Part shown: positions 3,579 to 54,649 of the stretch, piece by piece
Position numbering within the stretch: position 1 is the first letter of the stretch
Layout of the letters: every line of letters begins with the position of its first letter
IMG/VR virus record: IMGVR_UViG_3300035661_000023
Coordinates: 1-64,000 of that record
Source: a virus
Strand: one strand, 5' to 3'
Length of the DNA stretch: 64,000 nucleotides
Made by a program: the position numbers and the translations under genes
The notes under the pieces: model-generated
The model's database searches: none
The model's input: the letters and a program-made list of their open reading frames with translations, nothing else
What the model was told of the DNA's origin: nothing

Positions 3579-5459
3579 TTAAGATATGGTCCAGCCGATG
3601 CCTTGATCCATGTAAGTGAATGTCAGCGTACTGTTATTGTAGTCGATGTTACAGTTCTCAGACAGAGACATGATATTCTGACCGTTGCGCATGACTGTAC
3701 ATGACTATGTCGCATGTTTGTATATAACAACCTTGTCCCCGGGAACTGGATTCGCCGGCAAGAATACATTGTTACCAGCCCACATGATACAGCAATCATT
3801 TGCCATGGCATATAAAGGAGTCCCAGCAGAACTACCCCCATTAACTACTCGCTGACCACCGATAGAAGTCCAGTCACCCCATACAGTACCTTCTGCAACT
3901 CGCAGGTACATTCTACTAGCATTACCAGCAGATAACTCCACTGCCAATTGAGCTGCATATCCAGTATTGTCATGGTAAAATACCAAAATGTGCCAATAAC
4001 CAGCCAGAGTGATTGCTGTACCAGTAGCATTATGCAAACCGTTTCCATCATTAGTATAGAAACCAGCCTCGAGTGTAGTAGACTGAAAGAATGCAGCAGT
4101 GTGCGGTGTGTCCTCAAAGATGGGAGTCCGTAACAGAGCACGAGCAGAAGCGACATCACTAATGCCGAACAGTGATTTACCTACAGTAGAACCGCCCAAA
4201 TTGGTCAATGCCTGAGAAGAAGTAGTCGCTGCAGTGCCACCCTATGTAATAGGAAGTGCAGTCATAAGTGACAGACTAGAAAGAGTACCAGCGCCCGCCG
4301 TGATCTATCCATTGTTACCGAATGAATGAGTAACACCTGAACCGTCAGCAGTAAGAATCTCTACTCTGTTATCTGCTACAACTTTTCTAACTTCTCTACC
4401 ACCCAACTTGAGCGCACCGGAGTATAGTACGGAACCAGAATCACCTTTAAAATCTGGCACACCAGTTAGATCAATATTAATCTTCTCTGAACCGGACAGT
4501 TTGATAGAAATTGGCTTATAAGCACCAGAGCCAAACTTACCAGATTCAATCACTGTTGCTTCTGCATCAACACCAACATTCACAAAACTTGTATTAGCAA
4601 TATCAGAACTTGAATAAGAAATTAGACCCGATGCAGTACCGCCACCATTTGGTGCAATACCAAGCTGCGCATTAGAATCTGCAGCAGAAGAAGTGATCAG
4701 GAATCTCTTAGTATGATCTGCATTACTCAAGTCGGCAATGATTTTTCTATTGTCACCAACGAATTCGTACGATCCATTGTGAGTAACATCTACATCACCT
4801 AGAGAAACAAGTCTCTGTGTTACATTGATAATCTCTGTGTAACCGGTTACTATCTTTGCAGTCAGTGTTCTTGCGGGTGTGAACTTAGTAAAGTCGCCTG
4901 ATTCCAACAGCGTGATCTCAAATGCTATGTGATCATATATTGCAGAGCCAGTTGGTACACAGAAGATTCTGATATTACCGGTTGGAGTAGTCCAAACTTC
5001 AAACTGGAGACTTTGTGGTAACTCATTTGACTCGTGGCTAGTCCAGTGGAATACAGTGATTGCAGAACCAGTGGTGGCTTGGAAATAGATCTTCCCTTTG
5101 CCTTCAAGTGTAGTAGTGCTCTACTTCTGCAACTGCGCGGAGATATCAAATATCGCCTTCTCACCATCATTTCCTCGTCCATAATCACCAATGAGAACAC
5201 CAGCAGTGGGCACAATACCGGAATATGCAATTGCATACTTTTTGATTCTACCTCCAGCTAAGTAGATATCATTCATGCGAACGATATCACTGAACACTGG
5301 GTTGGCAGCACTCGCTTTGGTGTTGATTTCCTCATTCAATGCCCAAAGGTTATAATCGCCTTCTGCATTGGTAAGAGGAGAACCTTTGATGGCAGAATCC
5401 TATATTACTGCCTATGGAATACCTGGGGTTGCTGTCTGTCTGTAGAATATATTTGCCAT
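3579..5459 (-). CDS. Tail fibre protein (626 aa)
   Basis: A 626-residue protein starting MANIFYRQTATPGIP, rebuilt from several TAG-separated pieces (six TAG codons). The N-terminal third contains baseplate-attachment-like sequence, followed by repetitive beta-rich sequence with many short Ser/Thr/Gly runs, and then a segment GGTAATTSSQALTNLGG (about residue 410), a motif common in phage fibre shafts ahead of a receptor-binding tip. The C-terminal region (HILVFYHDNTGYAAQ, WGDWTSIGG) resembles fibre head domains. It lies between the 62-aa coiled-coil gene and the fibre-partner gene. I infer a long or short tail fibre; the T4 counterpart would be in the gp10-gp12 position. Confidence 0.7.
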
Positions 5460-5663: not shown

Positions 5664-8155
5664 CAGATAACAGCAATAACTCTGTAATTCTTGATCACAG
5701 GTGACATGTTCTTGTACTTAGAACTCATCACACACTTCAGATTGTAGGTATCAAATCCTGGTAGATCGTACAGATAGAATTCATAGTCGAATAAGTCACC
5801 AAATGAAGTAGATTTATTTCTAGCGACATCGCAGTTCAACTTCTTCCATTGCAGTTCTGAATGCGTACTGGTGTCATTAGACATACTAGTTCTGACATAC
5901 CATTCAACAGATGTGTCAGGAGTAGAAGCCATGAATGAAATTACCTTGATACCAGTAGAGAGAGTCTCTAGCTTGATTTCTTTAGTTATGTACTTAGCAA
6001 GTGCATAACCATTGTTTGGTAACAACTCTGAGTTCACCTTATCGATGACTGCTGCAGCGGTTGCAGTCTGACCAGAGCCGCCCGGGGCAGCAATAACAAT
6101 TGTTGGAGTTCTAGTGTAACCTGATCCACCGGAGACAGTCAAGCCGGTAACACTGCCACCTGCTACAGTAGCAATAGCAGTTGCCGTAACAATGTTCTCT
6201 TTATTTGGCTCATCCTCTGCTGGCACAATAGTTACAACAGGAACACCAGAGTAACCTGTACCACCAAACAATTGTGTGAAACCAGTAACTGAACTAGAAG
6301 CAACAGTAGAGTTTACATCTTCAATGAATGCTTGATTGTTGATAGCATTTGCATAAGAAGTAACAGTTGCACCGTTTCTCAGATCAAGAACCGGTGATAC
6401 ATTGCTAGCAGAAGTAGTAAGTGCTATATTCAACTTGAATGAAGAATCTGTCTCACCATTGTTAACAGAAGTAGCTCTATTTGCGATTATAGATTCATAT
6501 AGTGCAAAGTTAGCAGCATATAGATCAGTGGGCATATCTCCACCGGTGTACTGGTAATTTGTGTCCAGAAGTTTGTGTGATGCTCTCAGTGCGGTACCAA
6601 CAGGTGTAGCAAATTCAAGATTTGGCACAAATAGACTGATCGGCTTGTTGATACTCACATTAAACCATGCCTCAGAATAAGCAGTTACAATACCTGGCCA
6701 TGTACCAGCATCTACTTGTACATTTGTCGTATAACCGGATCCAGGATTAGTAACAGTTGCACCAACGAATCTTGGACCTGAGCCAAACTATGTAGCTGTG
6801 TTAACAGAAGCGGTAGCAGCAGTTCCACCAGCAGGTGCAGGAATTGTTACACCAGTAGGGACAGGGCTATCTGCATTCTGATTCTCAAATACTACATGAG
6901 TTATCACACCACAAGAATTTATCGAGCCCGTAGAAGTAGCAGTAAATCCTGCACCAGAACCCGCCAATTCAAATTCAATTGAATAGTCATCAACAATTCT
7001 GGTAATACCGAAAGAACCTGCCAGATTAGCACCAACGATGCCATTATAATATGCATTGGCATGAATGGAGATAGGATTAATGACAATGCGTTCTTTGTTA
7101 TCGAATAGAGTGTAGCCGTGCTGCTCGAAAGAGCGATAAACGACTTTATTACTTCCAGTAGTAGTAAAGAACTGAGTACCTTTAACCCAACGGTTAGCAG
7201 AGTCACCACCCAGAGTCACAGTAGCAGAATCAGATGTGAAATCTGCAATATTCATGCGGAACTTCATATCTTCAAACTGATCTGTGGTCCATGTGGATTC
7301 GTTCTGGCTCTTGAACAAAGAACCAACATACGGCTGTTCGAAGATGGTTTTCTTAGTCTCATTGGACTTTTCACCCATCTTAGATGCCCAGATCTGGTAA
7401 GTATTACAGTTCTACTTTACGACAAAACAGAATTCCTTGTCTTGTGGCAGGTAAATTGGGACAGGGAATGTGAATTTAGTAGGGACCGATGCATCATTAG
7501 ACACAAGAACTTGATTAGGGTACAATGTCACATTTGCATCTTCTGATACTAACTTTTGAGTAGGGTACCCGTTCAGCATTTCTCTCAGATCAACCGAGAC
7601 TGGAAACGTCTGATCCTTTGTATAGAAATATATCTCAATACTTGTAACAAACACACCACCTTGCTTCCCATACGTAAAGAAGGACTGTGCCAATGGGTCT
7701 ACTCCAGCCCTAGGTGGTGGGGGAGCGACAGTATCAATATCGAGCAGAGAGATAGTCTTTCTGAATACCTGTAGAGTACCTTGAGCAACAAATGTTGCAT
7801 CCAGTTCACCGAGTGTGTTGCCGTCTACTGCAAGATCAGCAATCTCTGATGCTTCTGTAGCAATAATATCCAAGTCACCTGCCTTAAATTTACCACCTTC
7901 AATATTGATGATAAAATCTACATCACCGTTTGTAGACACAACAACCGGTTCACCCATGTTTTTATAATCAGAAGCAGAGTTCCAGTTCCGAGATTCAACG
8001 CGGTGATCATACTTCACACCATCTAAGAAAATATGAAGAACCGTATTAGGTCTTGCATCCTTGTAAGTGCAAGTAACCTTTTGTGCACGAATATAGACCA
8101 GAGGTTCTGATCCAAGCAGTTTCGTTACTGCATATCTTCTAGAAATTGTTGCCAT
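5663..8155 (-). CDS. Large baseplate/fibre structural protein (830 aa)
   Basis: An 830-residue protein starting MATISRRYAVTKLLGSE, joined across two TAG codons (6788, 7412). Around residue 155 it has VDPLAQSFFTYGKQGGVFVT followed by an EIYFYTKD segment, a pattern shared with large baseplate-associated proteins next to gp10-gp12 in T4-like phages. The middle has QNCNTYQIWASKMGE. Further on there are repeats of the type GGTGYSGVPVV and GGSGYTRTPTI, a Gly-Tyr repeat also seen in the gp8-like gene. It follows the DUF4815 protein by 8 bases. Most likely it is a baseplate-periphery or fibre-attachment protein. Confidence 0.7.
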
Positions 8156-8163
8156 AATTTATC

Positions 8164-11100
8164 TTATCTCAAATTTAAGCCGTTGCGGATGTACTGTTGG
8201 ATGCTAGGGTATTCCCACGTAGAAAGTGCTCTAGTCTTTGAATCCCAGCCCATGATCGTGTCTATACTGATCTCTGAAGGCCCAGAGTAATATGCACTTC
8301 CGAGTGTGTTTGGTAGTTCATATTTAACCCCAGTGTATGGGAGTTCGGGAATGTTGTACGGTTCAGCGAGTACTGGCGGAATAGCCGCTGGTTGTGTAGT
8401 CCATGCCCATGCATTTCTTCTCAGAGTAATCTCTGGTAGGAACAATGTCTCAACCCAGTAATCTTGCTTAGGTGACAGTGTAAGAGAACCAGAGAAATCA
8501 ACAACGTTGAACGGATTCACATTAACAATTTTGGATGAATATTGAGACTTCGCAAAATTCTACTCAATATAGTTAAGAGTTACAAACCCACCATCATTCA
8601 CCTTCACGTTGGTAGTTTCTGTAGCAGGAACATACAACTGAAGATTGATCTACTCATTTTCCAGACGGCAGTAGATTCCATCCTGTGGAGAAGTAGAGGC
8701 AGAATAACCTGTGGCTAGAACATCTGCGATCTCAAATGGATCTTGCACATTTTCTACTAGGTACCCAGTCTTGTATTTCTCCAGACCTGTCTTAGCATCA
8801 ATAACCTTAGTCTGAAGCAATTGTGTCTCTGCTACCGATAGAGTAGCAAATTCTTCCACCTTATCGATTCGTTCTTCAATATTGGAAATTGCTTCCATTG
8901 TATAAGTGTTTACAGCCACACGATAAGAATTAATATCGTTAATGGAATACAGATATGGAGGAAGGTCGTATCTGTCTAACACATAAGCATCTTCTGGTAC
9001 TGCAGGAACTCTAGGTGCTTTACCTGGGTTGCCTTCTTGTACAAAGATCTCGCCGGATTTATCTACACAGACGAGATCAATCCTACCAAGATAATAAGTA
9101 ACACTTGTATCGATTGAAGAACCAGAAACAACAGGATTCGAATTCACACCGGTACGAAGATCCAAACAATCTCTCATGGAGATAGGAGAACCATTTGCAG
9201 GAGTGTAAGATTCAATATAATGATTTGGTATACCGGCATATGAATCTGCACTGAAGAAACTAGATGTTCCAGAGTGTTGCAGGTAAACATACTTGATCTT
9301 GATATCCTGACCTGCTGGTAGTGAAGAGATACCGGGCCGCAATTCAAGATATGAGTTCAGATATGCAAACTCTGTGGTGTTTCTCGAGAATCTGAAGTCA
9401 TTGATTCGCTCAATGCCGCCGATTACAACACTCTACACAAAGACAACATCATAATTGGGCAGTGTAATTTTTCTCTGCCCCAATGTAGAAGTTGACATGA
9501 ACGGGGTATCAGAAACTTCTTGCACTGTTTTTGTCTTTGCGGCAGCTGCTGATTTTCTTACTTGAACAAAGCAGATGTAGCCAGCAGTATTAGGTCCGGT
9601 GATAGATGTTCCACCACTAGAAACACTGAATCCTGCAATAGACACAGGAAGACCTGCCAGGCTGTATACTGTAAAGATACCTGTGTCTACACCAACGACT
9701 GTACCAGAACTCACTGTACCAGAAACAGATGAACCAGAGTTGATCGTCAATCTTTCCCATGTGGTTATATCCATATCTGGTAGATTGTTAGAATCCTTCA
9801 GTGTCTAGACACCATTTCTACCTAGATACTGAATAAGGTTATCAGCACCATCAGAGAACAAGCAACCGATAGAAAGAATCTTTGCGCCTGCTGCAGGCGA
9901 TGTGGTAGCAATAATCTATCCTGGCTGTGGCATCTACGCACCTGGGGTATTTCCAGATTTGAACACAAATAGCATGTTAGTGGACTGTTCATATCCACTA
10001 ATAGAGAACTCTGTGCCATTGATAGCAGTCACTGCAGAGATTGATGCCCAGTTGCTAGTGGAATCAACTTGTGTCTCATGAACCATAGCACCAAACGTTG
10101 TGCTAGTACCAACAATTCTTGCACATGTTGACAGAGAAGAGTACCCATTTGCATAGGCGAAATCATAGAAGTAAACTTTATCTACTCTTCTTTCTCCCCA
10201 TGAAGAACCTGCATAGAAATCTACCGTCAAGAACTTAGCAGTAGCTACAACATTACCACCTGCGGAAGCAGTGTCATAGAATGTAATCGTTCCGCCTGGA
10301 GCAGGTAACTGACTCGCATTAGTAACATTCACCAGAACATATGAACCATACGCAATTCTTTTTGTCAGTCGCTCTGGTGCACCACTAGTTCTAGGTTTGT
10401 CTACTACTACATAGTTTGGAACAAGTGTTTCTACACCGAAGCCGTAAATGTATGCTTTACCCTGAGTAACATTGTATACTAATTTCTGTTCAAAACTAGC
10501 TTCTTCTGAGGGAGATGTAGCAGTAAACTTGCCGCTGTTGTTACCCGCGCGCAGATATTCCTGTGCATAACCTTTCAACCCATCTACTACATAATTACCT
10601 GATTCTTCATATGTGCGCTTGGCGAATGATTTCTCGAGTTCGTTGTACTTCGGGAAACGAGCATGTTCTTCCAACACACCTTCGTTGTATCTCATCAGTT
10701 CAACATACTCATCTGTGATAGCAGCATCGAGTGGGAGCGAGATCAAGTCGATCTCAATCTTGACTCTGTCCGCGCCTGGCGCAGTGTAGTTATAACTACC
10801 CTGAGATGGATCTAACAGTGTCTCATCATCTGTATATTCTACAAGAGATTCTGTGATCTTGAACAGAACATGTGCAGAAGGAGAAACAGTGTATCTGGAG
10901 ATAGTTACTGTCTGCTTCGGTGTGCTAACGAATGTGCCATTGATGTAATACACACCAGCATTCACGAAAGCAAGTGAGCCAAGACCAACAGGTGAAGGTT
11001 CACCGGAAATTAGATTCAAATCATTAATCAATGCTCTCTGTGAAATGTCAGTTTTCACATACACTTCTTCATCTGGCAAGAATTTGCTAGTAGCAAGAGT

Positions 11101-11508
11101 ATTTCCGCTCTGAGTGTAGATACCAGATTTTGTATAAGCGAGATAGAAGGTCTTGGGTGTGCTATTGGATGATTCATTCTCAATGTGAATTATCTTAGCC
11201 TCAACACCGGATGTCACACCAACAATCGTCTTGTTAAAGAATCTGGTGTTATCAATAATTATGCCGTTGAATGATGAGCCTACGGTAATGTAATCTACAC
11301 CCAGTTGAGCAAAACTATTACCCGGAATAACAATGGAACCATGTTTAAAAATGTGGTTGCCAAACTTCTCGATCTGATTTCGCAGTATAGTCTGAAGTTG
11401 AGTCAATTCTCTGGCTTGCACAGCATAACCAGGTTTGAACATAATCTGATGATAATTCTTGAATTCATCAAAATCATCAAAGTATGGGCTGACGTTATAG
11501 TTCTTCAT
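8164..11508 (-). CDS. DUF4815-type baseplate protein (1,114 aa)
   Basis: The 1,114-residue product starts MKNYNVSPYFDDFDEFKNYH and continues with FKPGYAVQARELTQLQTILR and a GNHIFKHGSIVIPGNSF block; this N-terminal signature is that of DUF4815 proteins encoded beside the baseplate genes of T4-like phages. Six TAG codons are read through (8560, 8650, 9433, 9805, 9916, 9934). The rest is beta-rich. Its place between gp8 and the fibre genes corresponds to T4 gp10, so I infer a baseplate-pin or fibre-network role. No catalytic motif is visible. Confidence 0.75.
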
Positions 11509-13910: not shown

Positions 13911-14393
13911 TCAGTTAACGGTGATAGACCATGTGACAGTAAGAGAATCACCTGCTTCTTTGTTCACCACATTGAAAGTAGTTCTTGCCAGCATGTTGCC
14001 ACCTGAAGCTGCATCCATAATACCGGCTTCCTTAAGTGCACCAGTGCCAGCTCCCGGACCGAATAATGCAGTGTAAGTAACTGTAGGCCCAGTGCCTGTG
14101 TTTGCACCTGAGGAAAGAGTAAGTGCAACTCGACCGACTTCAGCACCGAGCCCCACATCGCCAGTAACTGCAGCTGTCTGCGTAGTACCAACTGCCATGT
14201 GCGACATAGGAGAAGTATATACTACACCTGATGCTGCTTGCCTCATGAGTCTGGCGATATAATCTTTACCAGATCCAACAACTAGGTTCTTCACCTCTCT
14301 GCTGTCTTTAACAGTGCCATCGGCTGCTGTTAGCTTAATCGTAAGTTGACCAGTAACTCCTGAATCACTTACTAATACTCTGTCATTGATCAT
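13911..14393 (-). CDS. Conserved phage structural protein (160 aa)
   Basis: A 160-residue protein, MINDRVLVSDSGVTGQLTIK..., with no TAG codon. The run KNLVVGSGKDYIARLM followed by SPMSHMAVGTTQTAA is a familiar pattern in small phage tail or fibre-associated proteins of unknown function. Its start overlaps the stop of the upstream gp7-like gene as ATGA. Position between gp7-like and gp8-like wedge genes suggests a baseplate component. It is shorter than T4 gp9 (288 aa) and I cannot claim homology to it. Confidence 0.6.
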   Translation of the reverse strand: MINDRVLVSDSGVTGQLTIKLTAADGTVKDSREVKNLVVGSGKDYIARLMRQAASGVVYTSPMSHMAVGTTQTAAVTGDVGLGAEVGRVALTLSSGANTGTGPTVTYTALFGPGAGTGALKEAGIMDAASGGNMLARTTFNVVNKEAGDSLTVTWSITVN

Positions 14394-16141
14394 TCTACGA
14401 TCTCCAATTGTATTGAGAAGAAACCACCTTCGGTGGACGGGTCGGTTACGTCAAAGAAGGAAGTTACGGAAATGTGCGCCACGGGGTAATTATAATCATT
14501 ATTTATGCCGTACCACGTGTCAGCTGACCCAGAAACATCCCCATAAGAATAATCGGGTTCCCAGCCTCCAAATGAAATATAGTCTGCTACTACATTCTTC
14601 TAGATATTCTTAGCAAGAGTTTCTGAAGGAGATATGTAATCTTCGAGTACCTTTTCAACATGCTTGATATTAAAGTCAAATGTTGATGTACCATCAAACA
14701 GAACTACATAATCTGAAGATATACTTCTCTAACCTGTAACAGCGTAATCCAATCCGTTCATTCTTCTCTATTGAATGAACGACTTAGTTCCGGCAGGGTG
14801 ATTAAATTTAATTATCTACTCTGCTTCTTTAAACTATTTCTATGTTTCAATAGTATAAGAATATGTCTGATAATAGAAACTATCTTGAATGATGGACTGA
14901 GCATCAGAAATTAATCCCGTCCAGTCATCGAATCTACCATTACTCTTTACGATATAATCAAATTTCTAGATCAATACTGTTCTGGATTCTTTCCATTGAT
15001 CTATTGTGTAAGAACTAAAATCCGTAAACAGAGTCGGTTTAGCCTGACTTACAGTCTGAATAAATGCCAAAGAACCATAATATGGTCCTACTTCCGGCAT
15101 CTGTTGCTTGTAGTAATCTCCAGACAGCATATACGTCTGAATCCAGGATCCACCATCAATAACCTCTGTCATACCTTCTATATCATCTAGAATATCAATT
15201 CTGTGATGTTCTGTGATAGCACCAGTAGTGAAATTGACTGAATCAATCTCCGATGTTATATTAATATTTCCGGTCGGAGGCTTCTAGAATGGATAAATTG
15301 TATACCATGAATTTTCTAATAATTCATAGCCATATTCTTTTATTTCTACAGTTTTGATCTACCCAGTACCAGTTGAACTGTACACCCTAGCAATTGTTGA
15401 TTTCTTCTATCCGGGAATCTAGAAAACCTGCCCTTTTTGCCAATACTTTCCGCCGGTATGGATATCAAAATGACTGAATGTCTTTTTAATAATACCTTCG
15501 TAGACCTTAATCCCATTTCGTTTAATCTGAAATTTTTGAAGATTACTCTCTGATGTTGTGTCAATATAGAACTGTTGTTTAGAATCAAAGAAGATCAATG
15601 AATCAGAATTGGAAACAACTTCTACTTTCTTGACATTTATAGAGAAAATACCCTTTGCATTGGCCCATGATAACTTATCGTATGGCTCAATCACGAACGC
15701 ATCTGATATTTTGTAAAGTGTCTATAGACGAATATGGTATTCCTGAGTCCATGTAGACTCAGAGGCACGAAGCATATTATACTTCGGATATGCTACTTCA
15801 ATTTCTTCACCGAATGCAATTCTGAATAAGAACTTAAGACATTTCTCAGTACCTTTATGAGAATATACTTCTGCTGCATTTCTTAGAAAATTGATAGTTG
15901 TTATATTTGAAAATGTTGGTACATCTATTGCAAATTGATTTCTGTAATGCTCAATGAAAACATCCAGATACTTTTCATCCAATGAGGAAGCAAGATCCAA
16001 ATCAGTAGCATAATTCAACTTACCATTGAACGTATCTTCTTCAATGAATCTATAGTATTCCTCTACGAATTGAATTAGATTCGGGAATTCTTCTCTAAAG
16101 AACTCCGGAAATCTATTGCTTGTTATTAGATCTGTTTTCAT
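14390..16141 (-). CDS. Baseplate wedge protein in the gp7 position (583 aa)
   Basis: The 583-residue product starts MKTDLITSNRFPEFFREEFP and has an N-terminal helical part with FVEEYYRFIEE, YSHKGTEKCLKFLFRIAFGE (about residues 92-111) and a following YPKYNMLRAS; this signature occurs in baseplate proteins of T4-like phages. About 12 TAG codons occur, one of the highest densities in the window, and the gene is unrecognisable without reading them. It overlaps gp6 upstream and the 160-aa gene downstream as ATGA. Synteny gp25-gp6-this-gp8 places it where T4 has gp7, although T4 gp7 is much longer (1,032 aa). Confidence 0.7.
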
Positions 16142-29649: not shown

Positions 29650-31273
29650 TCAATTGTCGGAAATAGACCGAAAATAATCTTCTATATCATCGCCATCCGA
29701 ATCAGGTTCGGCTTGTGGGGCAGGTTTAACTTTTGTTTGAACTTTTGGTTCAGTGACAGTCTTACCCTGAGTCTTAGGAGCAGCAACAGGCATCGCTGAC
29801 ATTGACTCTGCAACTTCCTCGGCAGTCTTAGTACCAACAGTAATTCCATTCATGACTGCATCAAACTTACGCTTGAGTTCGTCATAAGATTTGAACTTTG
29901 AAGGAGCAATAAGTTCCTTCAATGGTTGCATCTTGTTGAGAATTTCAACAATTTCCTCATCCGAACCTGCGATAGGAGAAGCATCAGCAAACTCAGATTT
30001 GTCATAGTTAGGATAACCTTCTACTTGACGCATGCGCAGTTTGAAATTTGCACCCTCGAACGGGTCGAACGGATTCAGTGGTTTCTCATCTTCGAATGTT
30101 GGATTAGCAGATTCCATCAACTTTTCAAAGATTTTCTTGCCAAATTTAAACTTCATCACACTACCTTCTAATTCCGGCTTAGTTGGATAAGACACAATCA
30201 GAATATTAGCGATGTAATTCAGGCGGCGCTTGGACTTGCGAGCAGATTCTTTATCTGCCTCGAGACCGGTCTTCCATAGTGCAGCATTATACTCACTTCG
30301 TTTGTGTTCAACACCAATCGTTACTTGATGCCCGTATTTCATACAGCTCCAATTTTCACTGGAGACCAGACTATATCTTGTTCTCTGATTTGTCTCAAAG
30401 AACCTCGGCATTTCGAATCACTTGATTCTACTCCACATAGGATAGTCGTTGAACCTTCTTCATGCTTGATAATCAAACCACTATCAAGGTTAGAAGCTTG
30501 GCTGCTGATTGCCCAATCTAACAATTTCTTAGACCCGTCAAGTTTGCCCTTTCGGGCTTCGCTTTTACTAGGAATGATCAAAACTGCAACTTTATTCTGC
30601 ATCATAACACTTCACCATTGAACTTATTTCTAATAATCTCATTTCTTATTGTTTTTGTGAAAATGCAATAAGAATTATAACCATGTGTGAAGTTATGATA
30701 ATTTTTCATATTACCACACTCACAGATATCATCTCCAGATTTTTTCAAATACTTGTCATAGTATTCTCTAGATGTAATTCCCATAGCTCTGAGATTGTTT
30801 AAAAAGCCTCTTAGATGTTGATAATGTTTTCCTGTAATTACGCATGTTATACTCATCTGAATCTCTTTTAAACTATTATTGAAAAATGATTCAGAGCACA
30901 ACAACACTTTGTGGGATTGTTAGCTTAAGGGGATTCCAGCAATTAACCGAGTTTTCACTGAAAGATTACTCTATCAGGCCGCTAGAAAGTTAACGGGATC
31001 TGCTTCACCGAGAGTAGTACGGCTGTTTTCAATATACCACCGACCAGTAGGACCTTGGAAAGCATGGTTGTAAATGCTCACCCAGGGTAGTTCGTCATCG
31101 GGGTGTTTTGGCAGGAAGCGAATGACAGCAGAACCGTTGCCGGCTTTGTCACGTTCCAGTTTGAAGAAATCATCGTTGTCATCTTTCTCATAAGAGGTGG
31201 TCTTTTTCAAGGCCTATTGAAGAGAAGCGAAGTCACCACGTGACTTGCGAAGATCTGAAAGAGTAAAGCTCAT
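29650..31273 (-). CDS. gp32: Single-stranded DNA-binding protein gp32, split by a group I intron
   Basis: Two exons, 30993-31273 and 29650-30298, joined across an intron. Exons total 930 nt (310 codons including stop), i.e. 309 aa, against 301 aa for T4 gp32. Exon 1 encodes MSFTLSDLRKSRGDFASLQ, a TAG, and KLERDKAGNGSAVIRFLP, the classic gp32 start of the OB core; exon 2 continues SEYNAALWKTGLEADKESAR and KRRLNYIANILIVSYP, and ends in an acidic tail (DSDGDDIEDYF). Splicing restores DPV-SEYNAAL. The zinc ligands of T4 gp32 are absent, as in cyanophage relatives. gp32 coats single-stranded DNA in replication, recombination and repair. Confidence 0.85.
30299..30992 (-). ncRNA. Group I (td-like, IA) self-splicing intron in gp32
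   Basis: A 694-nt insertion interrupts gp32. In the minus direction the exon ends CCGT and the intron contains GCGG 10 bases on, forming P1 with the expected U.G wobble at the splice site. Exon 2 starts AAGT, which can pair with ACTT in intron positions 3-6 (P10). The intron ends in G. Conserved core parts are visible: GGCCTGA, the P/Q region TTAATTGCTGGAATCCCC with AACAATCCCAC, the R/P7 strand GTTCAACGACTAT, TCAAGTGATTCGAAATG, and the S strand AAGATATAGTC. These resemble the T4 td intron part by part. Splice sites are inferred from pairing and protein continuity. Confidence 0.88.
30602..30856 (-). CDS. Intron-encoded homing-endonuclease-like protein, short (84 aa)
   Basis: Inside the gp32 intron, 84 residues from the methionine at 30856: MSITCVITGKHYQHLRGFLN, NLRAMGITSREYYDKYLKKS and a Cys-rich CECGNMKNYHNFTHGYNSYC. 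The 'GITSREYYDKYL' plus Cys motif resembles the N-terminal zinc-binding module found in phage homing endonucleases. No LAGLIDADG, GIY-YIG or HNH catalytic centre is visible, so the gene is probably truncated or acts as an accessory DNA-binding protein. A longer frame with an upstream start (30907) exists, but MSITCVITGKH is the more natural start. Confidence 0.55.
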   Translation of the reverse strand: MSITCVITGKHYQHLRGFLNNLRAMGITSREYYDKYLKKSGDDICECGNMKNYHNFTHGYNSYCIFTKTIRNEIIRNKFNGEVL

Positions 31274-32759: not shown

Positions 32760-33182
32760 TCAGAATGAATTCTTTTTCAGTGCCTACTAGACATGCTTCT
32801 TAGTCACACGGAAAGATACCCACTGATTGTAATATGCATCACTGAACATCGCTCTTTCTTCCATGATATACCGAGTTTCCTCATAGTTGCATTCCTACTT
32901 CTAGAAGCAGAACTTGATGATTTCTCGCTTAAATTTATCTGCACCAAGAGAAGCAACTTCTTCTTGAAGTTCCTGATTCTATCCGTAGTAAGTCTTCCAG
33001 TCAGACTCTACCATCATCTTCTTCTTAACACCCTTGAATTGCTTTGTTCTGCGGAACTGAAGAAGTTTTTTTCCGAGATACTGCCGACCTGTATCCAAAC
33101 GAGTAATCCTGTAGATAAAACCTATTGCCTTTTCAGGTGGTTCATCTACAGGATCACCATTTAGAAACCACTCATTACTCAT
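32760..33182 (-). CDS. GIY-YIG-like endonuclease (140 aa)
   Basis: 140 residues starting MSNEWFLNGDPVDEPPEKAI. The GIY-YIG core is seen as GFIYRITRLDTGRQYLGKK (about residues 21-39), followed by ESDWKTYYG, a TAG, and NQELQEEVASLGADKFKREI; the catalytic Arg and Glu of the family would lie in the later helices. The gene continues through five TAG codons to a TGA; with TAG as stop it would lose the C-terminal half. Such small GIY-YIG proteins are common free-standing nucleases in T4-like phages. The start overlaps the zinc-ribbon gene by 8 bases. Confidence 0.75.
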
Positions 33183-33318
33183 CATCAGTTTCGTCAAGTG
33201 GTGCAGGAGAACCACACACTGGACAGTACTAAATTTGCGCATCATCAAAGTCATCCCCAAGAATAACTTTGACATCAACACCACAATCATCGCATGTAAA
33301 AACAACCTTCTGAGACAT
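33175..33318 (-). CDS. Zinc-ribbon protein (47 aa)
   Basis: 47 residues with two Cys pairs: FTCDDCGVDVKV (CxxC near residues 9-12) and YCPVCGSPAP (CxxC near 33-36). A TAG codon sits directly before YCPVCG; in such zinc ribbons this position is commonly Gln in an 'IQYCPxCG' context, which supports TAG = Gln. Short zinc ribbons near phage replication genes may act in transcription or nucleic-acid binding; the role here is unknown. Confidence 0.65.
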
Positions 33319-47167: not shown

Positions 47168-50100
47168 TTACTCATAAGCCAGATCAACCAGTTGAGCAAC
47201 AGGAATTGATGCATCGGTGGTACCTAGCGCATAATTACGAATTGTGTATGGTTTGAATCCAGGTTTGTACACAACAATGTCTACATTCTGTTGAACTGAA
47301 TACTCATAGTTCCAATATGTCACCGAGTTGTTTTCTATAGAAGCAATAATGGTTGTTGTACCTGCCATCAGGACCACGATATCAGATCCAGTCTTAAGAC
47401 CAGTCAGTGTCAGATTGTTCACAGATGCTGGATAGTAATTTCCCACTACATTGTCTAGTTCTGTAAACAGGCGGATTGCCATTAACTTACTGGTCGGTTG
47501 TGGTGCAAATACACCAATTGTGTTAGTCGCAGTGATTGTCCCGTGAATACCAACAAGACTCACCTATCCAGATGCAGTAGACAAACTCGCCGCTGTGTTG
47601 CCATAAGATGCTGTGGTTACAGTAAATGTTGTGGCGTTTACAATAGCATGCACGAAGTAGGTAGTTCCCGTGCTCAGACCACCAATCGCGGTTTCTACTC
47701 TGAACCCCATACTTGAGTGTAGGTTAGCAGTGCTGTCACATGTTACTGCTGCATACGTACCGGTTATTACTGTAGATGTAACACCTTGAGGAAAGTTAAC
47801 TACCCATGTGGAGCCGGAGCCGGAGCCGGAGATATTTGCTACAATATATGTACCAGAAGTAACCCCGGTGCCTGTCACCAGCATACCAGGTACTATTGTG
47901 CCAGCAGCTAATGTTCCGACTGTTAATGTAGTTCCAGCAATTGTGGATCCATTCAGTGTCGCTGTTGTATTAGCAGCAGTTGCTGAAATTGTAGCTACTA
48001 AAGTACTAGAATAAATTGTGTCACCGGTAGCCCAAGACCCAGTAACGCTGGAGCACGCGATGCTACCAGTTGTTGATGTAGTTATAGTTTCGTCGGCTTC
48101 AATTACAGCCGTACCAGTTGCAGAGGCGGCTGATAGTGTGTTTCTAATTGTTTCACCGATGACAAACTGTGCAGTCTGCCCTGTGTATTTCATGACATAT
48201 CTTGCACTAACCCGAAACTTGATTCTGAAACCAACTGATGGATCAAAAGCAGTTTCGTATGCTAGATTGCAGATCCCATTATTGCCGTTTAGCAATTTCC
48301 AAGAACCAGAATAACCAGCACCTCTGTCTAAATCATACTCAAGTTTTGCACCCAGAGATGTTACTGGGCTCAGTCCAATATCAACGCCATAGATGTGTGG
48401 CATGCGTCTAGAGAATCCAGTTACACCCTTGATAACATGAGGCCACTCGAATGTGACAACATCTGAGTTGGTAGTAAAGAACAAACCACCCGAGTTATCA
48501 AAATAAGCATTACCAGATACAAACGCATAAGGTTTCAACGACTTAGTCGATGGAGACATTCTAACATCCAAACATCCCTTGTTTGCAGCTCCCCATGTCA
48601 TTTCGTGGAACATGTTATCATAAACCGCAGCAAGTGATGCTGGGTTAACTGGGAAACTATCCTGAGATGGGTTAGTGGTCATATTCCATGATACAGCACT
48701 GTTTACTGGGATAGAATCGCAGCCAGGGGACCCTTTGTAGATTGTATCTAAAGAAGAAGCACCCCACGGACTAATTCCGCTTAGGGTTGATGTTACGTTC
48801 TGAAACTTGATCCCAGATGATGCGTTGTTAATAATAGAATCAAAATACACAGTAGACACATAATTTCTTGGATTGACCATCTTGATATTATGTAAGTACA
48901 CATTATAAGCAGCTGTGGAATATCCCAACAAGTTACCGACGGAACCATTGAACGAGATTGTGGAATTCTTTATCGTGATACCACTAGCTCCGTTCTATGG
49001 ATACAATAGAACGTTTCTATCAGCCAGATAGTTGTTTGCCGGTTGATAATTATCGATCGTGTGATTTGAAGATGAAGCATAAGCAAACGCTACATCTGTT
49101 CCACCAGATTCTGTACTGTAAACTTGGTTCTGATCGGTGATTGTAAAATTAGGTCCTGAATTATCGACATGCAAGTGAGCCCAATACTGACCAGTAGGTG
49201 CTGCTTGGATGTTAGTAACAATACCTGCTGGAGCATCATATAGGAAATAACCAGAAACACCATCAGAGAAGTTGAATAATTGTTGCGGCAAGAATGCAGT
49301 AATAGCCGTCGCATTAGGTGGTGTCGGCACTGGTATAGATGATCCAACTGTGACCATAGCTCGTACAGCTTCTACCATACTACCCATCAGTGGCAATCTG
49401 ATGACTGCGTTAGTTGCGTTTGATGTTGTTGTAAATGTTACAGAATATCTCTTCCATTGGTTAGTCAAAACCAAGCTATTAGTTGTAGTTCCAAACAACA
49501 GATCACAAGTAATATAGTCACGAAGATCTGGGTGTCTAGCTCTTAGATAGACCTAGAATGTATACGGGACTCCGATTCCTGTGTTGATAGTTTGTGTCAG
49601 AGTTCCGTTTGCAGCAGCAGCATATAAAGATGCCCCTAGTGCAGTTCCTAGTGCAGCGTTATTGCCAATAAGGTTGTCAAATGGTGTATACACAGCAGCG
49701 TTTGTTGCTGTGATGTTCGATGCCACCCATGTTGTTGCTAGAGTATCTGATTGCAGTGCCTGGTTTTGGATGACAACAGGAGCAGTAGCAATGCCAGCCA
49801 TCTCAGGCAGTTCTTGCCCAACAACAAAGCGTAGTGTTTGATTCACAAATGTATTTGTGTTTGCAACGGATACTGTCATGGAAGTTGCAGAGTCTACAGT
49901 CTACACTACACTATCTAAGCCAACGTTAGAACCGAAGATATACATTCCGGGAGCAGGACTGAAGCCGATATAAGATCTGTTATTACCTCTAGATGTCACA
50001 TTAGCAGTTAGGTTAGCAGACAGCACGATTGTATCAAAATCTGGCACATCTATCACAGTAGTTCCTACTGGAATGCCGGGTCCGGTTACAATTACTCCTG

Positions 50101-53100
50101 GTATGATACCGTTGGCAAAGAAGTTGAATACCGTAGATGATAGTACGTTTGTACCAACTTTTCCATCAATTTCAAATGATGCTTGCCAGTAGTACCAGCT
50201 ACCTTGTGTGGTGATTGTGTTAGCCGCAGCAGTGCCAGAGCAGTTTGCGATCGATGCAGCTCCACCACCGGACAATTTGCGCAGTCTGTAGTAGTACGTC
50301 GTTCCTTTAGTCACACCATGTGTGTCATTAAAGAACATCTGCCCAGCAGTTACTGATTGTGTAGCACCAATTAATGTTGTAGCATCTCTAGCAGTAAAAC
50401 CTGGTGTAGTTGATCTGAACAACTGATATACACCTTTATAGAAAGATGCAGTCATACCAGACGCAGTTTTAGTAGCAGGCTTGTTGATAGTAAACGTTGT
50501 GCCGTTTGTGATACCTGTTACAATTGCTCCGTTCACTGGGCTGCCAGCGGCACCACCGAATAAAGCCATAGCACCAGTTGCAACTTGGTTACCGTTACTT
50601 AATACCATGACAGTGCCGACTTGCAGACCAGCAGTTGATGTACAAGTCACTGTTGTGCTACCGTTTGTTGTAGAAACAGAAGACGCTGTGTTTAGTGCAG
50701 TACTAAATTCTGTCGATTGGTGATATACGGAAATTCTGTTATATACTGGCATAACATCTGTATACAAAGTCCAGGTAGGAGTTGTTACAGAAATGTCAGA
50801 AGTATACGCAAACCTACCCGTTATCGCAGACACAACACCAACGGCATTACCATTATTCGCAATGCCAATCCAAGATGTAACATCTGGTAGATATTTCAGA
50901 GCAGACCAAGTAACACCATCGGTTGAAGTGGCGAAGCACGCAGATGCTTGAGCTGCAGTAAATGCTGTGTGTGATGTAGTATTCCACACAGAACCAGCCA
51001 TGATCACAAACACAGAACCAGTGAATATGATCTTAGAATATGTCATACCTGTGGGGAGAGCTGGTGCAGTGCTAGCTGTCCAGGATGTTCCGTCTGTGCT
51101 GTATGCGGTAGGCCCTGTTGTACTTGAACCCGAAATTGCAACGAATTTTGAAGCACCGAATGCAATCTATTGCCATAGAGATGATGCTAGAGCACCACCA
51201 GCAGTCCAAGTTGCTCCATCTACGGAATATGCAGATGCAGTACTTGCCACAGACCCACCTGCAATTGCTATATATCTTCCTGCACCGTTTGAAGTTACAT
51301 CAATCCAAGTGGCTGATGCTAATGTGGTTGCAGTAAAAACGAAGGACCCGGTTGTTACACTACCTCTAGTGCCAGCCGTTGACACAGCAGATCCACCAGA
51401 TACTGCTACCCATTTATTTGTTGCTTGGGTGTTATCAAATGCCAGTTTTTGCCACTGAGCAGCTGCTGGTGCAGTTGTTACTTGTGACCAATCTTTCCCA
51501 TTAGTGGAAATTGCAATTAATGTAGAAGCCGCCCCACCACCACCGATTGCCATAAAGTAGTTCTGTGTTGGGCACCAGATAATATCTCGCCAGTATGTAG
51601 AAGCTGTGGTTGATGCTATAGGTAATTGATATGCAGTCCAAGTTACTCCATTATCATCAGAAACCATAGCTGTGTTAGCACCAACAGCTATAGCCCCGTC
51701 TAAAAATACCCATGATCCATTACCGTATGCCATACAAGGTGCCGTTGTTTGCTACCAAGCCGGAGTTACACCCACACGCTGTGGCATTTGCAAATACTTC
51801 GGGAAATTGCCATGCACACCACAAATTGGCATAGAATCTACATAAGACGTTACATCTTGCACATTTGTTGTTTTGTATGATCTAGACTTCAACCAGTATT
51901 TTGTGTCTTTTGCAATGTACTGTTCGTTCTTAACATCTGCCAGAACACGCATACCAGATGCCCAGCTATACCCCTCATTGTTGATACCAGTTCTGTGTGT
52001 GATATTAGAAATCTTGGTGTTGTTGACAACATAGCACCCCATCACACCATTGACATTATACAGCTTGATGTTAGAATAGTTATGATTATTACCAGCACTA
52101 TTTGGTGAAAATGCAGTGTTGTTTGGTCTAGTTTTTGGATATGAACCAACCTGGATTCCTTTGAAGTTGTTGATCGTGACATTATTAGAATAACTAAGTC
52201 CAAAGAATCCTGCATATGCTGAGCCAATCGATGGGTTTGTCTACAAACCGTAGTTCATATGACCACCAAACGTCATCGTCACATTTTGTATATTTGCATT
52301 AGAAACATATGACCACAAAGCACTAGTCAACGAGTTACCAAAAGAGGCAGTATTGCCTAATAACATACGATGTTCGCGAACTACCCAGGGTCCATAATAT
52401 GTGTACGCAGTTGTGCTAGTCGTTGTGTGTGCAGCAGTAGAAATCACTAATGATGTCGCAGAAACTACTGAGGTAACAGTTGCCGCATGAATAGCTGCAC
52501 CACCAGTAGTCAACAACATACCAGGAATAATAGCAGTTGATGACGGTATTGTGATTGTTGTTGAAGATGCAGTAGAAGCACCAGTAGCACCAAGAGCTAC
52601 TGGGCTAGTTACCATCATCCCGAATGATGGTAACTAGAATGCTACGTTATCCATCGATAGCTGGTAGCACTCTGAAATGAATGGAACACACTGCCCACCT
52701 GAGTTAGTGATTGATACAGAACTAGCTTGTGAGAAGTTAGAATATGATTCACCAAACAGAGTCTTGTCAAAGCTAAATTTCCCCCCACCAGCAGAAGTTC
52801 TTAAGTGGAACGGAGCATTACTAGATGTAAACACCGCATTCATGAAGTTAGCCGGAGAATAATCCGTTAACATTATGTTTGGGACTCTAATCTTAGCACC
52901 GGTCGGCGGGAGAGTCCCATTCGTGCCATCTCCGAATCTCAGTGTAGTTGTATTCTGTGCATAGATAGGCAGAATTGCTGCCATTGGTATATTAGCAAAA
53001 CCAGTAGTACCAGAAGATGATGCAAAAGATATTACACCATTAATCGTGAAACTAGTTGAAGATAGTACTTCTTGTACCACAGCACCACCAGATATACTTC

Positions 53101-54649
53101 TGCTGTACACCCAAGTACCGGGTACTAACCCAGCGGTCGATGTGCAGGTTATGACATTTGTATTTACAATTGCATTTGTGTTGCCCAACATTAAGTATTG
53201 GCAAGCAGATTTATTAAAATCTTGAGTGAATACTTTTCCCCCATCGCCCTTCCCGACGGAACGAAATCCATTACGCATCCAGTTCCATTGTGCATAGTCT
53301 GGAGAACCAGAAACATTAACCCATGCTTCATATACACCAGATCCAGAAGCTGTCTCTACCCATATAGTTGGGATATAGTCACCGGTAGTATATGGAGATA
53401 TGACGGTCTGCCCAGCGATTCCGGAGCCAGTGCCAATCTCAATCCAATTGCCGATGGTTTCGAATGTACCAAGTCCGTTTGTGCAGTCGATAGCACTGAG
53501 AACTGCTGTTGTGTTAAGTCTGCCAGTACCAAATCGAATTGGTGTTGTTGTGCTAGAGTTTGTTACAGAGACCTTCCCATTAGTGACGGTCAGTGCTGTA
53601 GTTCCTGCTAAGAAGACTTTCTGATCAGTGTTGACAGTCAAAACAGCACCGTTGTTTACAGTAATGCCATCACCAGATACTAATCTTGGTTTGATCAGTT
53701 TAAATTCTCTGTTATATGCAGCAGATGTGATTGTGGTCACAGACCACTTGACTCCGTCATATGAGAAAGCACCCACCGTACTTGAAATGGTGAGAGCAGT
53801 AAACATCTGCAAACCGTTCGAAGCAGCTTTACCACCAGCAATAATCCAGTTACCAGTAGCAGGAAGTGTAGATGCAAGCCACGTGGCACCGCCATCCAAA
53901 GAATATGCACCTGTTGTTCCAGTTGATGGAACTGCTACCCATGTCCCATTAGAATTGCCAATGTTTGCCCAGCTAATCATAGACCATGCTGCAGCCGATG
54001 GCAGAACTCCAGATCGCAGAGTCCAGTTCTGCCCATCGGTAGATGTACACACATCTTGAGACCCATTGGCGATAAGCACAAACACACCATTGGCAAACTT
54101 CAGATCAATCCAAGCAGCAGTAGAGGGTAGAGTAACTGAGGACCAAGTCGATCCAGCATCGATCTAATATGCAGCTGATGTAGAAGAAGGGGCTACTGTT
54201 ACGAATGTATTGTTGCCAAATGCTAGCAATGACCAAGCTGCAGCAGATGGAAGTGTAGAAGCAGTCCAGCTAATACCTTCCTTGTGTCGCATGTAAGCAG
54301 CAGAAGTTGTGGATGTGTTAACAGAAACAAATGACCCATTACCGTATACACATTTCTTCCATGCAGTACCAGTAGGTAATTGTGTAGCAGCATTAGTAGA
54401 AGCAGCACCAGAAGTTAGAGGAGCAATAACGGCGGCACTAGTTCTGTCTGCGGCTACTAAAACACATAATCCATCATCAGAAAAGTCCCAACCTGTCCAT
54501 GTAGATACAGCAGAGAATATATTACCAGAAGTAGTCCAATTCTGCCCATTGACAGAATAATAAGAAGTTTGCGCGCCGTTTATGGGTGTGTAAAACTGGT
54601 ACCCGACTTCTGAAATATTTTGATCTGTTGTTACAACGTATTGAGTCAT
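47168..54649 (-). CDS. Giant tail fibre / adhesin (2,493 aa) with BNR/sialidase-like repeats
   Basis: Ten pieces separated by nine TAG codons (54164, 52634, 52241, 51752, 51167, 49901, 49553, 48995, 47564) share one frame with no TAA or TGA from 54649 to 47168. The N-terminal ~380 residues and a middle block (about 980-1,170) have short repeats of the type WTASTLPSAAAWSLLAFGNN, YSLDGGATWLASTLPATGNW and YSVDGATWTAGGAL, the S.DGG.TW pattern of BNR/sialidase propeller blades. Much of the rest is beta-rich (TNSTTV..T.STAGL.VG type repeats, IKNVTMTFGGHMNYG-type beta-helix). It probably binds host surface sugars. Confidence 0.8.

Follow-up and report, generated by a model that had tools for sequence, protein, structure and literature searches.

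The gene for gp32 is interrupted in the stretch of viral DNA analysed here (the window; positions 1 to 64,000 of the 97-kb IMG/VR record IMGVR_UViG_3300035661_000023), which raises the question of whether the interruption is a group I intron like that of T4 td, as an earlier note had proposed from the sequence. In T4-like phages, gp32 is essential.

Host Gene and Exon Structure

The insertion lies on the minus strand of gp32 in phase 2, between GT and A of the interrupted codon (Table 1). The proposed exon sum of 310 codons proved correct, as 281 and 649 nt make 930 nt, equal to 309 codons and a stop. Exact removal of the insertion restored the host gene in a frame of 309 codons followed by TGA, and the junction ...GATCCCGT + AAGTGAG gave GAT CCC GTA AGT GAG TAT, reproducing the predicted DPV-SEYNAAL. 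The joined protein matched the Pfam gp32 family (E-value 4e-40) and the ssDNA-binding protein of PHROG 224 (E-value 3e-100), and was aligned to T4 gp32, across the CPVC motif (Cys-Pro-Val-Cys), and to the gp32 of HTVC008M. In the alignment, the intron site adjoins the V of the T4 motif. The unspliced reading frame runs into a TGA inside the intron (...DPVNFLAA, then stop), so full gp32 cannot be made from unspliced RNA. The joined frame also contains a single in-frame TAG at codon 20, which was absent from the earlier note.

Table 1. Coordinates of the gp32 exons, the intron and its elements in the window.
Feature	Position	Strand	Remarks
gp32 exon 1	30993..31273	-	codons 1-93 and two bases of codon 94; 281 nt
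In-frame TAG, gp32 codon 20	31214..31216	-	CAA in L004
Group I intron	30299..30992	-	694 nt; RF00028 49.9 bits and empty sites in relatives
P1	30979..30996	-	exon CCGU 30993-30996 with intron GCGG 30979-30982; read from sequence
P10 strand ACUU	30987..30990	-	partner exon 2 AAGU 30295-30298; read from sequence
P2 hairpin	30958..30977	-	GUAA loop
P3 5' strand CUCGGU	30946..30951	-	partner GCCGAG 30404-30409; covaries across 10 introns
P4 5' strand UUGCUG	30937..30942	-	partner CAGCAG 30502-30507; invariant
P5a 5' strand CUAACAAU	30916..30923	-	partner AUUGUUAG 30518-30525; surrounds the intron ORF
Intron ORF, 84 aa	30602..30856	-	putative homing-type endonuclease remnant; only the N-terminal Zn-finger-like part
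P6	within 30455..30496	-	CUUC 30493-30496 / GAAG 30455-30458
P6a	30482-30488 / 30465-30471	-	
P7 5' strand GACUAU	30442..30447	-	partner AUAGUC 30369-30374
P7.1 / P7.2 region, td-like	30415..30441	-	alignment to the T4 place
P8	30380..30403	-	
P9	30347-30364	-	GAAA loop
P9.1	30332-30346	-	
gp32 exon 2	29650..30298	-	ends at TGA; 649 nt

Group I Identity

A search with the Rfam group I model RF00028, the check suggested in the earlier note, matched positions 30347-30644 with a score of 49.9 bits (E-value 1.5e-11, under an E-value threshold with 901 bases searched); this was the sole match in the 97-kb record. As the gathering threshold of the model is 50 bits, an Rfam gathering scan of the whole window reported nothing, the score being 0.1 bit under the cut-off. 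This null result is no real refutation, since the same search of T4 gave three strong places, with 105.3, 40.3 and 35.7 bits, two of which score below the gp32 intron. We take these places to be nrdD, td and nrdB, by their number and map order. Against this yardstick, a score just below 50 is ordinary for an ORF-bearing intron of such a kind, and the Rfam gathering cut-off can overlook ORF-bearing phage introns. A megablast search of the region against phages gave no match. The gp32 insertion was confirmed as a group I intron.

Intron Fold

The elements previously named, comprising P1, P10, the terminal G, both P7 strands and the td-like stretch, were all found on the minus strand where they had been placed. 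P1 carries the U.G at the splice site and is extended inward by U1-A10 and A2-U9, with only four exon pairs. The P3-P8 core, including the G-binding site of P7, was present.

Covariation was analysed in an alignment of 10 introns, made up of the window intron with its ORF cut out and nine introns found by pattern. The P3-P7 cells were paired in 97.7% of cases compared to 86.6% in shuffles, and 36 of them showed double changes compared to 12.3 in the shuffles, which ignore relatedness. The pairing fell to 30-52% on sliding by 1-3 columns. The main covariation support came from P3 (double changes in five of the seven pairs), the strands of which were positioned by eye, after Rfam's model, and some came from P5 and P6. 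P4 and P7 were invariant and gave no covariation support, as the nine relatives had been chosen for their shared P4'-P6-P7 sequence. P5a comprised eight perfect pairs, a number equalled in 68 of 5000 shuffles, and was retained with two compensatory changes in a related intron at locus L135.

The Rfam alignment placed the 5' half of the model from 30644, on the end of the ORF and the sequence beyond it, with several mispairs. This placement was rejected in favour of a 5' half at the intron start, made up of P2, P3, P4, P5 and P5a, because CUCGG/CCGAG pairs and covaries there, while the choice of Rfam mispairs P3. Minimum-energy folding missed the core of the intron, a failure to be expected with a pseudoknot.

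Filled and Empty Sites

Relatives of the gene were drawn from IMG/VR as a set of 80 loci. The identical 694-nt intron was present in two contigs from other metagenomes, which excludes an assembly artefact. The close relative L004 showed an empty site exactly at the intron position, with amino acid identities of 96.8% and 89.7% over the two exons, and the gp32 of L005 likewise had no insertion. No insertion was present at any of the remaining loci of this set for which both halves could be located (L058 starts too late to be judged), and a second set of 80 gp32 loci, found with the HTVC008M gp32, was also intronless. The site was empty in L004 and in about 156 other gp32 loci tested. A match to gp32 was found at 2417 places in 2415 phage records and was a single piece in 59 of 60 sampled records, although the count of places may hide short inserts because nearby pieces were joined.

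Introns of T4-like phages have been described in td, nrdB, nrdD and gene 43 (PMC2993671; PMC2988022), those of gene 43 in Aeromonas phage 25 and phage JSE (PMC2993671). As a host gene, gp32 appears to be unreported in the open-access literature searched, a limited claim as the reviews date from 2010. An intron in an essential replication gene of a T4-like phage is not in itself new, given gene 43.

Junction Codons

The codons around the junction were CCC GTA AGT GAG TAT in the window, compared to CCA GTC TCC GAG CAC in L004. Among 27 distinct contexts, the junction serine was encoded by AGT only here and by TCN in the 26 others, and it is with AGT that exon 2 can pair with the intron ACUU of P10. 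The fit of the exon codons to the intron guide suggests co-conversion during homing, or later adaptation. Mismatches to L004 cluster at the junction, but the C-terminal tail of the gene varies more.

Reading of TAG

In-frame TAG occurred in 41 of the 65 ORFs of at least 150 aa, 162 times in total; examples on the minus strand that read TAG as sense include 8164-11508, 14390-16141 and 47168-54649. In L004, gp32 likewise holds one TAG close to its beginning, at codon 27, and the gp32 of L005 has none.

The meaning of the codon was addressed by comparison with a 60-kb relative over 11,393 aligned codons at 88.8% identity. Serine stood opposite TAG at 47 sites, glutamine at 15, and any other residue at four or fewer, with log-likelihoods of -198.8 for serine and -317.1 for glutamine; both genomes share the recoding, and the sites available in more remote relatives were too few for a decision. 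The glutamine cases were mostly CAG, one transition from TAG, and the serine cases mostly TCT or TCA, two changes away. Serine thus fits far better than glutamine. The TAG at gp32 codon 20 itself faces glutamine in L004 and L005. Judged from these alignments, the phage reads TAG as sense, most likely as serine. No tRNA gene was detected by ARAGORN either in the 97-kb record, which is a fragment, or over 60 kb from the relative. Where phages recode TAG in the literature searched, it is to glutamine (PMC7886860), so a serine reading would be unusual.

Intron ORF and Homing

The ORF of the intron is located in the P5 arm. Its 84-aa product gave nothing or chance-level matches against Pfam, PHROGs, PDB and PADLOC, and tblastn against phages gave no match. 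In viral contigs outside the window phage, 40 relatives were identified, in which the shared 60-odd residues mostly lie within proteins of about 280-600 aa. In many of these, repeats (DUF7487) occur together with a restriction-endonuclease-like segment at the C-terminus, tentatively Vsr-like/EDxHD by our reading of its motif; some relatives are short (L100, 130 aa) or have different ends. Two motifs usual in the relatives are altered in the window ORF, the first CxxC to CVIT and YCSxxC to YCIFTK, which breaks two conserved cysteine pairs, and the nuclease part is missing. The ORF does not encode an intact endonuclease and is best read, from these comparisons, as the remnant of a larger one. 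Among 20 of the ORF relatives scanned, none was near an Rfam-recognised intron.

In T4, gene 32 is known as a target of homing, and SegG, a free-standing endonuclease, has been assigned to it (PMC2988022). A SegE-like GIY-YIG ORF (4702-5127, minus strand; 26.5 bits, cut-off 25) was observed in L004 directly downstream of the intronless gp32, with no counterpart at that place in the window. The window encodes a protein of the SegE_GIY-YIG family at 32760-33305 (minus strand; 111.5 bits), readable only with TAG as sense (five TAG) and also present in L004 at 83.7% DNA identity.

Relationship to td and Other Introns

The claim that the intron is td-like was supported by an alignment with the T4 intron at 143.6 kb in P7-P7.2-P3' and in P9. 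This T4 place (W01:143611-143841; 40.3 bits), which we take to be td by its map position, could be aligned with the gp32 intron from P7 to P9.1, and P7.1 and P7.2 hairpins of td-like appearance are present between P7 and P3'. The intron would belong to subgroup IA, probably IA2 to judge from what is generally known of td. The two introns share the P7, P7.1, P7.2 and P9 stretch, a T4-like host gene and an ORF in a peripheral arm. They differ in the host gene (thymidylate synthase in T4 td), in the arm that holds the ORF (P5 here, whereas the td ORF lies in P6a) and in the ORF itself, which is the GIY-YIG I-TevI in td and a Zn-finger remnant in gp32.

The td comparison needs one qualification, in that the nearest relative found was the ORF-less intron of L135, located in a tail-sheath-like gene. 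It was the closest match over P3-P7 and P5a, and scored 105.2 bits with RF00028. An HNH-like ORF lies just upstream, an arrangement (L135, oriented 5875-6624) such as would be expected if the intron homed in trans. Truncated endonuclease ORFs are likewise carried by the T4 nrdB intron and the gene 43 intron of phage JSE (PMC2993671), but with other host genes and another family of endonuclease than in the gp32 intron. Two contigs (L086, 118-3592; L091, 5517-8999) each hold three group I introns in a span of about 3.5 kb, and at L089 (3278-3659) a group I intron splits what looks from its sequence like a DNA polymerase gene.

Discussion

We conclude with high confidence that the gp32 insertion is a td-type group I intron, predicted to be self-splicing, which either entered gp32 after the split from L004 or was lost there. 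The intron is very probably spliced. The transcript would fold through P1-P9, and a guanosine would attack the 5' splice site that the U.G of P1 marks. The released end of exon 1 would then attack behind the terminal G while P10 keeps exon 2 in position, and the joined exons would yield an intact gp32 message. A homing endonuclease was probably once carried in the P5 arm. With only 84 aa of it left, autonomous homing has probably been lost; a nuclease acting in trans could still move the intron.

Three other explanations were weighed. The intron could be a domesticated control element which, together with the codon-20 TAG read as serine, times gp32 production in a T4-like phage. We consider this improbable. 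The single TAG near the gp32 start, both here and at codon 27 in L004, would suit such a role, as would the dependence of full gp32 on splicing; however, L004 lives without the intron, the gp32 of L005 has no TAG, two TAG positions are few, and mobile introns require no such role.

Marginally less credible is a group I intron that has decayed and lost its splicing, leaving gp32 made in pieces or absent. The decay of the endonuclease and the Rfam score just below the cut-off would fit such a loss, but the catalytic core, the guide pairings and the terminal G are intact, both gp32 exons are open and conserved in a gene generally known to be essential, and three contigs carry it without a single difference in sequence. 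That there is no intron at all, only an assembly artefact or the fortuitous arrival of a free-standing endonuclease gene, is very improbable, for although such endonucleases do split T4-like genes (PMC2988022), the same sequence recurs in independent contigs with a complete intron fold and frame-restoring ends.

With the self-splicing intron as the preferred explanation, gp32 joins the T4-like genes that bear group I introns, at the position of the CPVC motif. L004, with its empty site, and the window phage, with its filled site and guide-matching codons, form a clean natural case of co-conversion or of adaptation after intron gain.
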